IMG/VR virus record: IMGVR_UViG_3300032736_000613
Location: 1-37,470 of that record
Strand: one strand, 5' to 3'
DNA from: a virus
DNA: 37,470 bases
Part shown: positions 25,737 through 31,995 of the stretch, one piece after another
How positions within the stretch are numbered: the first letter of the stretch is position 1
Layout: every line of letters begins with the position of its first letter
Notes under the pieces: model-generated
The model's input: only the letters and a program-made list of their open reading frames with translations
Told to the model about the DNA's origin: nothing
The model's database searches: none
Program-made: the position numbers and the translations under genes

Positions 25737-27233
25737 TTATGGTTTGATAGTACCGTATGTAGCTAGTCGTAGAGATGCAACGCCCATATTATTAGCCTCC
25801 TCCCCCAATAGAACTAAATTGGAAGCGTATTGCAAACTACGCGCAAAAGTACTGTTAAGTTGGTCGAGTTTTGCAACTATAGATTTTGAGGTGTTAGCCG
25901 CAGTTGTTTTGGAGGAGATTTCAATTTCTTTAGTCTGTTTATTGATATCAGCTAATTGTTCAGTCAGATCGGCTACTCCAGAATCCTCTTTATTAGTACC
26001 AGCAAGTGACGCCATTTCTTTTGATGCTTTAGCTAAGCGGCTGGCGACATAAACACCAAGCGCCGTTGAAGCAACGATACCAACAACTTTTACCCAGGGG
26101 ATGGGAATTGCTGTAGCTATTTTAGCTGCCGCTAGCCCAACGGCTAACCCTCCAACAATATTCCCAGTACCACCTGTGTCCAGACTTTTTTGGAGAGAGT
26201 TAAAAATACCCTCTAACCACACAGACGCCATACTAGCAGCCGTAAGAAGTTTTAATTGAATGCCTATTGCTATAGTAGACATTTTTTGCTGTAAAGAGAG
26301 CAAAGAAACCGAATCACTTGCGTCCTTCACGGCTTTGTCATTAAGGTCGCCAATACCACCCGCAACAACTCTTTGTAGGGCATTCAAAGAATCTATAGAA
26401 ATACCAAGAACATCCGCGATAGCTTGGAAAGCTGGTTGGTTGCCTTGACCTGACGATGGCAGCATAGCGGCTATGTTCGAAATAGCCTGAAACAATTTTC
26501 TATTTACTTCAACTGAAGACTCTCTTCCAGTAAATTGAACCCCCGCCTGAGCAGCAAGAACTAAACCTTCTGTTCCCGTGGTCAAACTGGATATCAACTC
26601 TGCAATTTCAACAGACAATTCGCTGTTTTTGTTGATTAAACTCATTCGCGCACGCGAGACATTCGCAGCAAACTCCGGTCCAAGTTCTACACCAGCCTGA
26701 CGAGTCTTAACTTTAACAGCAAGAAGCGCATTAACAAGAGAATCAGAAGCATTTTTATTTGCAATGTTAGTCCCGGCAACAGTTTTTGCCAATTGTATAG
26801 AAGATTCATGTGATAAGCCAAGGGCTTCTGTATTCTCCCTAACAAACGACATATAGGCAATATTATCTAATCCAAGCTTCTTAAATTGCGTGGAGAGTTT
26901 TATTGAGTCAGTTTTTAATGCTGACTGTCCTATTGTTGCAGCGTCTTGCCACGCGGAAATTGTTTGTTCAAGCGATGCACCAGTCTCTACACCCATTCTA
27001 GCAGCAGCTGTAATATTTTTTTCGGTTGCTAGATTAAATTGCGAAAGCGTGGTTACTAATGCATGTTGGCTACGAACTGCGGATTTCATTCCGTCAAAAA
27101 GCACACCTCTTAGAGAGGTAACAGCAAGAGTTAGTAGGGGGATTGCTGACCGCAGCTTCTCCATCTCTTTTTTGCTATTGGCAATAGCCCTTAAAAGCTC
27201 TGCGTTGCTTATGTCTTTCGTTTTAGCTGCCAT
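25737..27233 (-). CDS. Tape-measure protein, gp29-like (498 aa)
   Basis: The protein is strongly helical and Ala/Ser/Leu-rich, with almost no strands. N-terminal heptad-like stretches (ISNAELLRAIANSKKEMEKL) are followed by long helices. A hydrophobic stretch at about residues 355-395 (GGLAVGLAAAKIATAIPIP, VGIVASTALGVYVA) could form one or two membrane-inserting helices, as in tape measures that enter the host membrane. A second coiled coil follows (ADLTEQLADINKQTKEIEIS). Position upstream of the tube-cap gene, as T4 gene 29 precedes 48, supports the role. T4 gp29 is 590 residues. Fully helical, 498 residues would span about 75 nm, suggesting a tail shorter than T4's. Confidence 0.72.
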   Translation of the reverse strand: MAAKTKDISNAELLRAIANSKKEMEKLRSAIPLLTLAVTSLRGVLFDGMKSAVRSQHALVTTLSQFNLATEKNITAAARMGVETGASLEQTISAWQDAATIGQSALKTDSIKLSTQFKKLGLDNIAYMSFVRENTEALGLSHESSIQLAKTVAGTNIANKNASDSLVNALLAVKVKTRQAGVELGPEFAANVSRARMSLINKNSELSVEIAELISSLTTGTEGLVLAAQAGVQFTGRESSVEVNRKLFQAISNIAAMLPSSGQGNQPAFQAIADVLGISIDSLNALQRVVAGGIGDLNDKAVKDASDSVSLLSLQQKMSTIAIGIQLKLLTAASMASVWLEGIFNSLQKSLDTGGTGNIVGGLAVGLAAAKIATAIPIPWVKVVGIVASTALGVYVASRLAKASKEMASLAGTNKEDSGVADLTEQLADINKQTKEIEISSKTTAANTSKSIVAKLDQLNSTFARSLQYASNLVLLGEEANNMGVASLRLATYGTIKP

Positions 27234-27655
27234 TATAGTATTTCCTTACTAACCCCTATTATATGTAGCCCGGAAATATACTTTGTATTATAGGTTCTGA
27301 CGACACCTCCTAAGTTTAGTTGGGTTAGCTTGGCAAGGCTCTTATACGAGATAGCCCCTGGTTTGAGTTTTCCAGCTGTTTTTATAATTTTATACCTACT
27401 TCTGACATCTAGTTTGTGCAGAGCAATACCAGTTATGTACAGCTGACCATCCTTGGAGAACCAATTAGGGTTCACAAACAAAATAAAGGGAGAAGGGTCA
27501 GTAGCCAGAGGAGCACTATATCTGAACACTGCTAATGATCCAAAATCATAATCTGGGGAATTAGGGATAACTTCAAGCGGTGTTTTGAGGAAAGGGACCA
27601 GAAACTTGAGTTTTAGAAAAAAACCCTGAAATAATTTTTTTATTGTGGTTGCCAT
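27233..27655 (-). CDS. Uncharacterised small tail-operon protein (140 aa)
   Basis: The gene starts the long minus-strand tail operon and shares TAATG with the tape-measure gene. The N-terminus is basic and hydrophobic (TTIKKLFQGFFLKLKFLVPF). The middle has FRYSAPLATDPSPFILFVNP, a strand, then DGQLYITGIALHKLDVRSRY. The pattern F-x-Y...P...DG.YI.GI.LH.L...R weakly resembles phage proteins annotated as DNA-end-protector or similar structural proteins, but I do not claim homology. Given its place before the tape measure it may be a tail assembly or hub-associated factor (a T4 gp28-like slot). Confidence 0.6.
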   Translation of the reverse strand: MATTIKKLFQGFFLKLKFLVPFLKTPLEVIPNSPDYDFGSLAVFRYSAPLATDPSPFILFVNPNWFSKDGQLYITGIALHKLDVRSRYKIIKTAGKLKPGAISYKSLAKLTQLNLGGVVRTYNTKYISGLHIIGVSKEIL

Positions 27656-28845: not shown

Positions 28846-29824
28846 TGCGCTGCCACCTAAGATTATTAGAGACTATTTGGAGTCCAAGTTCAATGAAAGT
28901 TTGATAACGGACTCAAAAGAATTTAGAGTGAACTCTATTTTTGTATCTGATTACAAAAAAAAATTATACATCAACTTAAATACTGGATTTTGGATTGATT
29001 TTAAAGCAGGAGAGACCGGGAACTTCTATCAGTTAGTGGCGCACATTGAGAATATCTCCTACAAGCAAGCAGCACTATTAATAAGAAAAACAATATTCAA
29101 CTCTACTGGGATTTTGTTTGAGTTGGATACAAAGCAGGTCGAGCAGCCGATAGTTGTTGTGGACTCTATCAAAGAAGAAATGAAAAATTGGAAATTGGTT
29201 CTACCAGACAGAGATCTTACTTCACCCTTACTAGTTAAACGATTGGCAGCGAAATATGCAATCTCTAGGGGGTTCAATAAGCATCCATTCTTTGTTGGTG
29301 TGAAAGGGAGAACATTCTCGCGGCTGATAATCCCGTACTATGACAATGAGGAGTTTTTCTACTATCAGGCGCGGGCACTAAATGACCAAGAGCCACGGTA
29401 TCTAAACCCCAAGGTTAGCGAGAATGGTATTAAATCTTCTAACATTCTTTACCCTTATAACAAGGAGAAAAATTATGTGATTTTAACGGAGGGTGTCATG
29501 GACGCCATGTCTTTACAAGCCGTTGGATTTAATGCTACTTGCACTCACGGGTGCCATTTATCAATAGCACAAGCGAAAGAGATAAAAGGAAAGAATGTTG
29601 TTATCGCCTATGACAATGACGAAGCAGGTCGTATGGGCGCGAAGCAATCTCGATCACAGTTACTTCTTATGCGAAGCAATAAAATAGGCATACTGAAATG
29701 TCCACCTTCTTTTAAAGACTGGAATGACTTCTTCTGCACAGATAAAAATGTTCTTAAGGCATGGGTCAAAAGCAACATAAAAGCCTATACCTGGGACGCC
29801 AATATTATCGAACAATTATCTTAA
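28838..29824 (+). CDS. DnaG/gp61-type DNA primase with TOPRIM domain and cysteine-free zinc-ribbon region (328 aa)
   Basis: The central region has the primase-core phrase RLIIPYYDNEEFFYYQARA followed by RYLNPK, and the TOPRIM motifs TEGVMDAMSL (Glu218) and AYDNDEAGR (Asp259, Asp261), which coordinate the catalytic metals in RNA primer synthesis. The N-terminal 90 residues keep the layout of the DnaG zinc-ribbon domain (KKLYINLNTGFWIDFKAGET followed by NFYQLVAHIENISYKQAALL) but contain no cysteine at all, so no zinc can be bound in the usual way. The length is close to T4 gp61 (342). It would act with a replicative helicase not in this window. The gene stands alone on the plus strand and overlaps both neighbours: 8 bases with the divergent nuclease, 20 bases with the convergent gene. 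Confidence 0.86.
   Translation: MNIALPPKIIRDYLESKFNESLITDSKEFRVNSIFVSDYKKKLYINLNTGFWIDFKAGETGNFYQLVAHIENISYKQAALLIRKTIFNSTGILFELDTKQVEQPIVVVDSIKEEMKNWKLVLPDRDLTSPLLVKRLAAKYAISRGFNKHPFFVGVKGRTFSRLIIPYYDNEEFFYYQARALNDQEPRYLNPKVSENGIKSSNILYPYNKEKNYVILTEGVMDAMSLQAVGFNATCTHGCHLSIAQAKEIKGKNVVIAYDNDEAGRMGAKQSRSQLLLMRSNKIGILKCPPSFKDWNDFFCTDKNVLKAWVKSNIKAYTWDANIIEQLS
28853..28858 (-). promoter_or_regulatory. Ribosome-binding site of the nuclease, inside the primase gene
   Basis: AGGTGG on the minus strand lies 7 bases before the nuclease ATG at 28845. It falls within the coding region of the divergent primase gene, which fixes the nuclease start and shows that the head-to-head overlap is real rather than a misplaced start. 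Confidence 0.55.
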
Positions 29825-30971
29825 ACTTCGGAGTGTAAAATGTTTGTTCTACCACAGTATATCTCGCCTGCACTTCATACACTCCTCTGGACCCACCTAA
29901 GATATCATCCGAGTATTTCGGGGTAATACTTTTAGTGTCAAAATTGTACGATAGTGTGTTATCTGATGTTAGGACAGTGTTATCCTCAGTATCATCAAAG
30001 TCTTTAATCAAGACTCGGTTTGTAAACTCAGGACTATCGTTCAGTTTGAAAATCCTAAAGGAGGGTTCGGTTACAAGAGATCCACTCTCAAGAAGATTCC
30101 GCACATGAGCCCTAACACCCTCATTATCAACGGTAAAGAACACTTTGATTCTTATCTGCTGTTTTGAACCAACTTCAATGTACCGTGTAACCAACTCATT
30201 CTTTGTTGATATTTGAAGTGGTTCAGTGACCACTTGAACTTGCGCGTGGTCAAGTCGGAAGGTATTAATGTAGCACTGGGCTTTACTTCCAATAACATCT
30301 ACAACAGTCCAAATATCAATATTGTTTCCTGTCCCGGAGCAGGTTTGGAAATAGGCAGTTGATATGCTATTGTTTGGGGCACCACCTGGGAAACCACCAC
30401 CAAAAGCACCTCCAAACGGACCTAGCTCTACTTCAGGATCACTATTGAAAGGTGGTTCAACAGGGTCAATAGTTGTAGTTGTTGGCCAAAAAGCATCAGC
30501 ATTAATTAAAGCATCTGCCCCCGTATAAGGGGCACCATCAACCCCACCACCCCAAGTCCAGTAATACCCACCAGGAGTAAGGATAACAGCGAAGTGACCA
30601 TCTTTAACTTTAAAAATGTTAAAGCTTTGGTCAACTCCTTTGTAATCACTTTGAACTGGGCAAGCCGCAATGCCTGCATCTGGTCCGGTCCAAGTAGTAT
30701 TTATATTCTGGAACCGCGCTTTTAGAACCCCTGGTTTTGGAACTAACCCACGGACGGAACTAACGAGACCATAATTTGTAGCTCCTGCGCTTAAATTTAA
30801 ATATTGATCTGCGGTACCATATTGTGTGTCCGCAAACACATGGACAGAACAGACCTGATAAGGGTCTTGGTATACTCCATCCTTGATAAAATAGAAATCT
30901 AACTTGGTTGGGGTTAGAGGTGTGGGCTTTCTATTTCGTTCAATAACAACTGTTCTGTTAAATTTAGCCAT
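29805..30971 (-). CDS. Beta-rich virion protein of unknown family (388 aa)
   Basis: The gene follows the gp26-like/-1 frame unit on the minus strand, 5 bases after its stop. The product is beta-rich, has no signal peptide, and contains a Gly/Pro loop at about residues 188-206 (LGPFGGAFGGGFPGGAPNN). Its C-terminal third looks like one or two immunoglobulin-like sandwiches (FRIFKLNDSPEFTNRVLIKD, then VYEVQARYTVVEQTFYTPKF). It is probably a baseplate or tail surface protein; the location between gp26-like and tape-measure genes supports a tail role. T4 gene 27 occupies a comparable place, but I see no gp27 resemblance here, and the hub is better assigned to the 1070-residue protein. Confidence 0.62.
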   Translation of the reverse strand: MAKFNRTVVIERNRKPTPLTPTKLDFYFIKDGVYQDPYQVCSVHVFADTQYGTADQYLNLSAGATNYGLVSSVRGLVPKPGVLKARFQNINTTWTGPDAGIAACPVQSDYKGVDQSFNIFKVKDGHFAVILTPGGYYWTWGGGVDGAPYTGADALINADAFWPTTTTIDPVEPPFNSDPEVELGPFGGAFGGGFPGGAPNNSISTAYFQTCSGTGNNIDIWTVVDVIGSKAQCYINTFRLDHAQVQVVTEPLQISTKNELVTRYIEVGSKQQIRIKVFFTVDNEGVRAHVRNLLESGSLVTEPSFRIFKLNDSPEFTNRVLIKDFDDTEDNTVLTSDNTLSYNFDTKSITPKYSDDILGGSRGVYEVQARYTVVEQTFYTPKFKIIVR

Positions 30972-30976
30972 ATCTA

Positions 30977-31222
30977 TTATTTAGCATTACGAGCGCGATC
31001 AATTTGTTCTTTCTCTTCCTGCTTCTCCTTTATATAGGCAGACAGGAATGTCGTTCTCTCCTCCCCCGTTAGAGAAAGAACATCGTGAAAAGTAAACCCT
31101 AAATGATGCACCAAGAAATAGGCTTCTTGAGCTAGAGATTCAAACCTAACCTCTAGCTCGCTGTAAAAAAACCAGCTGTTATCGGTAGCTCTATGTCTTG
31201 CAGCTTTTGACAGGCGAGGCAA
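30977..31222 (-). CDS. -1 frame extension of the gp26-like gene (gp51-like position), probably made by frameshifting
   Basis: This frame is open from 31222 but its only possible upstream start is a TTG without a ribosome site, 70 bases inside the gp26-like gene. It is better explained as entered by a -1 ribosomal slip at 31165-31171, giving a 62-residue extension starting YSELEVRFESLAQEAYFLVH. The core (YFLVHHLGFTFHDVLSLTGE then ERTTFLSAYIKEKQ) has the A-Y-x-x-x-H-x-x-x-x-x-x-D-x-x-x-L-x-x-x-E-R pattern of the small proteins that follow the gp26-like gene in contractile injection systems and occupy the T4 gp51 slot. It ends in a charged helix. A role as a baseplate or hub assembly chaperone is inferred from position. 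Confidence 0.65.
   Translation of the reverse strand: MPRLSKAARHRATDNSWFFYSELEVRFESLAQEAYFLVHHLGFTFHDVLSLTGEERTTFLSAYIKEKQEEKEQIDRARNAK
31129..31159 (-). ncRNA. Frameshift-stimulating RNA hairpin
   Basis: On the minus strand the arms are GAGCTAGAGGTT (31159-31148) and AATCTCTAGCTC (31140-31129). They pair over 12 positions, eleven Watson-Crick and one G-U, around a seven-base loop. The hairpin begins five bases after the slippery heptamer, inside the usual 5-9 base spacing. The zero-frame stop TAG (31155-31153) is inside its 5' arm. It is a cis-acting mRNA element, not a separate transcript. Confidence 0.75.
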
Positions 31223-31995
31223 TCAAATTTGAAGCGCGTAACTAAACCATACCAGTTGTGGAACACTTTATCGCGCAGGAAGGCAAAGTCCCTTAAAGTT
31301 GTTTTCTGTAAAAATGCCCGTATTACCCTTTGTTCTTTGTATGGTCCAACTGACAATATAAGTTTTGGGATATTATCAATGGCTGACTCCGTTGTTTCGA
31401 AAAGTTGTTCGTGGGAGCACCTGGGCGACACAAAAGAAACTTCAATTTTAGAGTCTGGGAGTGTCACTTTTATCGGCTCAACAAAATCATCATCAGCGTA
31501 CTTCACAATGAAATCACTGATGTTGACATTAAGCTTATTACCCTGATGGCAAGAAGGGCAATCCACCTCAAATTCATACTTGTCGCCATAGGATATCTTT
31601 CGAAGCATAAACAAAATATAGTTTTTGTCTGCCAAGGTTAGAGAGTCGTAGTCAATACCCCTCATGCAGTCGCCAAATAAAGATTTAATCACTTTGGAAA
31701 CACCTGCATTAGTTGAAGCAGTTCGAAGTTTTCTTTCCTGCTCATACTTGAATGGAGTCAATTGCACTCGATCAGTGCCGTCCTTGTACGACTTTCCACG
31801 CGATGGCAGTTCAACTTCAAGCCAAGACTCCCCCTGTGGTACATTTTTTAGAAGAATGGCCAAAGCATCTTCAATTGATTGGTCTAAGACATTCTTGGGT
31901 TTGGCATTTGGTTCAGGCATGGAGACGGAGGAAGGATCTAATCCTTTCTCTTGAGCATATTCTTGAGCGAGTTCGATTAAAGTTTTTTGTGACAT
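31153..31995 (-). CDS. gp26: Baseplate hub assembly protein gp26-like, zinc-binding (280 aa)
   Basis: The middle and end match the T4 baseplate protein family to which gp26 belongs: LPSRGKSYKDGTDRVQLTPF, then DYDSLTLADKNYILFMLRKI and SYGDKYEFEVDCPSCHQGNK. Cys146 and Cys149 (CPSC) with Cys259 and Cys262 (CLAC) form a likely zinc site; the paired C-x-x-C motifs are usual in this family. T4 gp26 is 208 residues; here an extra N-terminal region (about 50 residues, with PEPNAKPK) is added. AAGGAA lies 7 bases before the ATG. The gene ends at a TAG within a frameshift-type hairpin, so about 277 residues would be shared with a longer fused product. Confidence 0.85.
   Translation of the reverse strand: MSQKTLIELAQEYAQEKGLDPSSVSMPEPNAKPKNVLDQSIEDALAILLKNVPQGESWLEVELPSRGKSYKDGTDRVQLTPFKYEQERKLRTASTNAGVSKVIKSLFGDCMRGIDYDSLTLADKNYILFMLRKISYGDKYEFEVDCPSCHQGNKLNVNISDFIVKYADDDFVEPIKVTLPDSKIEVSFVSPRCSHEQLFETTESAIDNIPKLILSVGPYKEQRVIRAFLQKTTLRDFAFLRDKVFHNWYGLVTRFKFDCLACQKLQDIELPITAGFFTAS
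31165..31171 (-). promoter_or_regulatory. Slippery heptamer T TTT TTT for -1 frameshifting
   Basis: In the zero frame of the gp26-like gene the codons read GGT TTT TTT ACA, so the seven T form X XXY YYZ exactly in register. A -1 slip re-reads the next codon as TAC and enters the downstream open frame, bypassing the TAG ten bases later. Together with the hairpin at 31129-31159 the arrangement is complete. Confidence 0.75.

Follow-up and report, generated by a model that had tools for sequence, protein, structure and literature searches.

A gp26-like gene followed by an open -1 frame

We have analyzed a stretch of 37,470 nucleotides (hereafter the window) from a metagenomic virus (IMG/VR record IMGVR_UViG_3300032736_000613, positions 1-37,470). 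The unit described here lies on the minus strand and is composed of a gp26-like gene and a -1 frame that continues past its stop codon (Table 1). The predicted product of the zero frame matched Pfam PF12322 (E 1.1e-19; 71.5 bits, above the curated cut-off of 24.5) and PHROGs family phrog_150 (E 6e-22).

Table 1. Features of the gp26-like unit in the window
Feature	Position	Strand	Remark
Zero-frame gene, gp26-like short form, 280 aa	31153..31995	-	PF12322 T4_baseplate / phrog_150
Slippery heptamer T TTT TTT, X XXY YYZ register	31165..31171	-	In-register T TTT TTN at the equivalent place in relatives
Spacer ACAGC, 5 nt	31160..31164	-	Between heptamer and stem
Stem of 12 bp (31159-31148 with 31140-31129), 7-nt loop	31129..31159	-	Likely frameshift stimulator
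Zero-frame TAG	31153..31155	-	Within the 5' arm of the stem
-1 frame extension (C-terminal part of the long form, with its stop codon), ATG-less	30977..31165	-	SP-15-type profile match, E 9e-9
Whole unit, 339-aa frameshift product	30977..31995	-	Predicted products of 280 and 339 residues

The zero frame reads GGT TTT TTT ACA across the slip site. The downstream stem, with a single G-U among its base pairs, folds with -17.7 kcal/mol (z -2.9). The -1 frame runs for 62 codons beyond the slip codons to a TAA at 30979-30977, six bases before the ATG of the next gene (30971). It has no ATG, and the only start-like codons past the zero-frame stop were TTG and GTG, 41 and 44 nt downstream and within the conserved segment. 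The window thus meets the heptamer-register and downstream-structure criteria of a programmed -1 frameshift signal; the frameshift product itself is inferred from sequence alone. The gene directly after the unit (29805-30971, 388 aa) has no Pfam or PHROGs family match, and a 140-aa protein at 27233-27655 gave a weak match to a DNA end protector family (phrog_429, E 0.0088).

The genes of the window contain 73 in-register heptamers of this kind, among which the one described here ranks first, with the strongest downstream fold and the longest -1 run, and is the only one with a 12-bp stem 4-9 nt away. Stems of 12 bp start at only 3 of the 35,331 coding positions. This agreed with an earlier note on this DNA, which had called the chance of such a stem at this spot very small. 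The heptamer, spacer, hairpin and TAG within the 5' arm were all found where that note had placed them. The ATG-less open -1 frame of 62 codons (counted past the slip codons) and the predicted products, given there as 280 and about 339 residues, held as well. Its central proposal, a -1 frameshift joining the gp26-like gene to a gp51-like frame, is supported as an inference, with one correction: of T4 gp51, only the last ~60 residues have a counterpart in the -1 frame.

A second IMG/VR contig carries the identical stretch, with zero differences, and its independence from the assembly of the window is not known. Searches using the protein and the extension of the window returned nothing beyond this contig, and a distant DNA search of phages gave no match.

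The -1 arrangement in related phages

A tblastn search with the window protein recovered distant relatives in 26 phage records, and one with the gp26 of cyanophage Syn19 reached 913. We have then read the gene ends of 81 related loci in which this end was legible. In 69 of the 81 loci (42 distinct extensions) a T-heptamer stood in register at the equivalent Phe-Phe close to the end of the gene, and the -1 frame was open. The carriers include isolated phages of several families, such as Kyanoviridae, Pootjesviridae (N34) and Straboviridae outside the T-evens (ValKK3, AsFcp_2), as well as Mendera, LG08 and Atu_ph07. The clade nearest to the window (LR756511, L081-L088) likewise has the -1 arrangement.

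The earlier note had named conservation of the heptamer and covariation in the stem as checks, and separate ATG-started genes without a heptamer in relatives as a refutation. The first check was met by the 69 loci. The second could not be applied to the window stem, its only near copy being identical, so that there were no diverged copies to compare. The refuting situation was not encountered in most lineages; two lineages, Cygsa01 and Vibrio D528, do lack the heptamer and have TAATG instead.

Cyanophages carry the same kind of pair, annotated as "gp26" (phrog_150) and a small "gp51 baseplate hub assembly catalyst" (phrog_634), with a T TTT TTC slip site. They share with the window the short form and the kind of extension. 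They differ from it in being annotated as two genes, the small one starting at an internal ATG, and in having a variable stem and, ahead of the slip site, a GAGGG motif. In three loci the annotated "gp51" (L010:3232-3369, L012:3217-3360, L024:1753-1890) starts at an internal ATG, leaving out ~17 residues that are conserved; L007 and L020 have no annotation of the extension at all.

Between the window extension and that of cyanophages the match was weak (E 0.001, probability 20%), and PHROGs contained no match to the former. The link of the window extension to phrog_634 is indirect, through the SP-15-type extension (Table 1), which in turn matches the cyanophage type with E 1e-5. The Pfam family DUF6760 was considered for the -1 frame and set aside, as its match (E 0.014) was below the family cut-off and was not used as evidence; DUF6760 is of unknown function, and the weak match raises a possible link to other contractile systems. 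No relatives of the SP-15 protein were found in a one-genome-per-species search or in plasmids.

The slip site, not the stem, is conserved

We have compared codon usage over 231 columns in a set of 39 distinct genes of the cyanophage type. Ahead of the Phe-Phe pair the residue is either Ser or Ala (AGT, TCT, GCT), and its third base is always T; no other column of the 231 changes its residue while keeping the third base fixed. The first Phe of the pair is TTT in 39 of 39 genes, compared with 332 TTT and 162 TTC for Phe overall. Other Phe-Phe pairs of the same loci occur in this context in only 6 of 74 cases, and finding all 12 of 12 lineages in it would have a probability of ~1e-13 by chance, if lineages are naively treated as independent. 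From the slip site to the ATG usually annotated as start in the cyanophage-type loci, the -1 frame has a dN/dS of 0.28, indicative of purifying selection.

Downstream hairpins were found in the window, LG08, Atu_ph07, L042 and L072 types and were absent from several relatives, where other stimulators must therefore serve. In the cyanophage types the Shine-Dalgarno-like GAGGG precedes the slip site by about ten bases, and one cyanophage clade combines almost unchanging stem bases with a variable loop. The conserved element across lineages is the slip site and not the stem, a point that the earlier note had understated or missed.

A +1 version and other exceptions

In seven phages (SP-15, LIS04, SagM-GXN1, BRock, LuckySocke, LR756508 and Mel-JY01) it is the +1 frame that holds the extension, and the Phe-Phe position reads TTT C or TTT TTT. 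Profile comparison showed the SP-15-type extension to be a homolog of the window's -1 extension. The +1 version was seen at loci L004, L005, L006, L007, L008, L009 and L025, and SagM reads TTC TTT CGT, which resembles known +1 shift sites.

Salmonella phage Marshall (Ackermannviridae; L021 around 1825) has an open extension frame with neither T-heptamer nor ATG, and ATT where its relatives have TAATG. This ATT may serve as a start codon, or an unrecognised shift may operate there; both remain possibilities. T-even phage Gravdalen has separate gp26 and gp51 genes, as in T4.

Predicted fold and gene neighborhood

Models of the short form from the window (pLDDT 71) and from a cyanophage (pLDDT 85) were compared with solved structures by VIA-align. 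The best rows for both models were the HK97 tail assembly chaperone 2ob9 (cyanophage model: Z 7.4, 81 aligned residues, 3.6 A; window model: Z 5.6, 76 aligned residues, 3.0 A) and YqbN 3klu (Z 6.8 and 6.0, respectively), which we take to be an XkdN-type tail chaperone. These matches cover the N-terminal ~85 residues of the family domain. All Z values were below 8 and hence modest; Foldseek with both models gave nothing significant (E-values above 1 for the 2ob9 and 3klu chains), and no sequence search against solved structures was significant. A chaperone-like fold is therefore a model prediction with modest support.

The gene sits between the tail tube and tape-measure genes in several relatives; among the neighbors of the window, family searches identified neither a tape-measure nor a tube gene. 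Based on the fold ranking and this gene order, the pair is best read as the short and long forms of a tail assembly chaperone, and the label of baseplate pair given in the earlier note appears to be off.

T4 gp26 and gp51 are paralogs that resemble the two forms

T4 gp26 (208 aa) and gp51 (249 aa) are encoded by separate, divergently oriented genes, each in a single frame, in agreement with the earlier statement that T4 encodes the two separately. Both match PF12322 (E 8.8e-64 and 3.9e-52, respectively) and each other (blastp 2e-6), and are thus paralogs by sequence. T4 gp26 ends in GLKEFFELL, and gp51 runs on from this end point: it consists of a whole gp26-like protein plus C-terminal ~60 residues that match the -1 frame. 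The family phrog_634 matched both this C-terminal segment of T4 gp51 (1.2e-23) and the Syn19 -1 extension (7.6e-28), and a profile match had E 4e-6. The window extension, when compared with the T4 gp51 C-terminus by itself, showed no significant match. Within one family, gp26 therefore resembles the short form and gp51 the long form including the extension; T4 differs in its gene arrangement. T4 gp51 is reported to be absent from the final particle (PMC3004832).

In a tree of the family, both T4 paralogs fell within the -1 group, together with ValKK3 and AsFcp_2 (86/80), a placement that is tentative given the long branches. The simplest history compatible with this tentative tree is that a frameshifting gene was duplicated and recoding was then lost.

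Alternative explanations

The frameshift could be real and its products still be baseplate-hub assembly factors, rather than counterparts of lambda gpG/gpGT acting on the tape measure and tube. T4 gp26 and gp51 are indeed described as chaperones of hub assembly, and gp26 has been assigned to the hub itself in some work (PMC3004832). However, the T4 tape measure gp29 is itself a hub protein, so the roles overlap, and both the position between tube and tape measure in several relatives and the resemblance of the predicted fold to tail assembly chaperones speak against this reading, which we regard as unlikely. Still less likely is that no frameshift occurs and that the extension is a separate small protein, made by termination-reinitiation or from a non-ATG start near the zero-frame stop. 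In its favor, the stop reads as TAATG or TGATG in Cygsa01, Vibrio D528, Mendera, N34 and ValKK3, and an ATG lies just past it in some cyanophages and the LR756511 clade; with an ATG at or just after the stop in several relatives, the extension could also be made alone. Yet no ATG lies between the slip site and the conserved segment in the window, Syn19, BRock, LG08, SP-15 or LIS04, selection acts on the -1 frame ahead of the annotated ATG, and the third bases of the slip codons are conserved.

Slippage of the polymerase on the T run, instead of the ribosome, could also join the frames. The window, Melnitz and HTVC008M have 7-8 T in a row, which would allow it, but most relatives have TTTTTTC, and six T are short for polymerase slippage; the register to the zero frame is moreover always kept, which makes this explanation very improbable. 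Finally, the window being a metagenomic virus record, an assembly error or a chance overlap with a fortuitous hairpin might be invoked. The identical second contig argues against this explanation, and isolated phages with the same arrangement already contradict it; the hairpin cannot be dismissed as an intrinsic terminator, a candidate that was tried and rejected because no U run follows the stem on either strand. We consider this last possibility all but excluded.

Discussion

The slip site, its register, its conservation and the open extension are shown by sequence; that frameshifting occurs, in which ratio and with which bound partners are inferences without expression data. Our preferred reading, to which we assign a probability of about 0.8, is that this T4-like phage uses the gene as its tail assembly chaperone, the counterpart of lambda gpG/gpGT in the T4 superfamily, with both frameshifting and function inferred. 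Most ribosomes would stop at the TAG and yield the 280-residue gp26-like short form. On T TTT TTT a fraction would shift by one base into the -1 frame, with the 12-bp stem 5 nt further on as an aid, and these ribosomes would produce the 339-residue long form, which has ~60 additional residues at its C-terminus. If the proteins act as gpG/gpGT do, the N-terminal part common to both would be the one to bind the tape measure, the extension would recruit another tail part, both partners being inferred, and both forms would leave before the virion is finished.

As in lambda, the short and long forms share their N-terminal part, the putative frameshift lies near the 3' end of the tail-chaperone gene, the gene precedes the tape measure in several relatives and the best fold match is the HK97 chaperone. 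In contrast to lambda gpG/gpGT, the proteins belong to a different sequence family, PF12322, with a second domain bearing zinc-ribbon-like CxxC pairs, and the units would use -1 in one group and +1 in another.

The tail assembly chaperone frameshift is conserved in long-tailed dsDNA phages (Xu 2004, reviewed in PMC5009743), and the review names T4 as an exception. We have found no report of a gp26/gp51 frameshift in the literature searched, mostly without subscription papers, and prior notice is not excluded. In the proposed scheme the frameshift unit would be widespread in the T4 superfamily, and in T4 the two forms would have become separate paralogs, gp26 (short) and gp51 (long, in one frame). 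A bolder reading, which we consider probable, is that T4 gp26 and gp51, proteins of hitherto unclear role, descend by duplication from the short and long forms of an ancestral tail assembly chaperone that used a frameshift and, jointly, that most of the superfamily still frameshifts, by -1 in one group and by +1 in another. If true, T4 would be no exception to the gpG/gpGT rule, gene duplication having replaced recoding. The reading would also correct the annotation of small "gp51" genes in many phage records, and -1 shift, +1 shift, reinitiation and duplication would form a natural series of ways to make the same two proteins.
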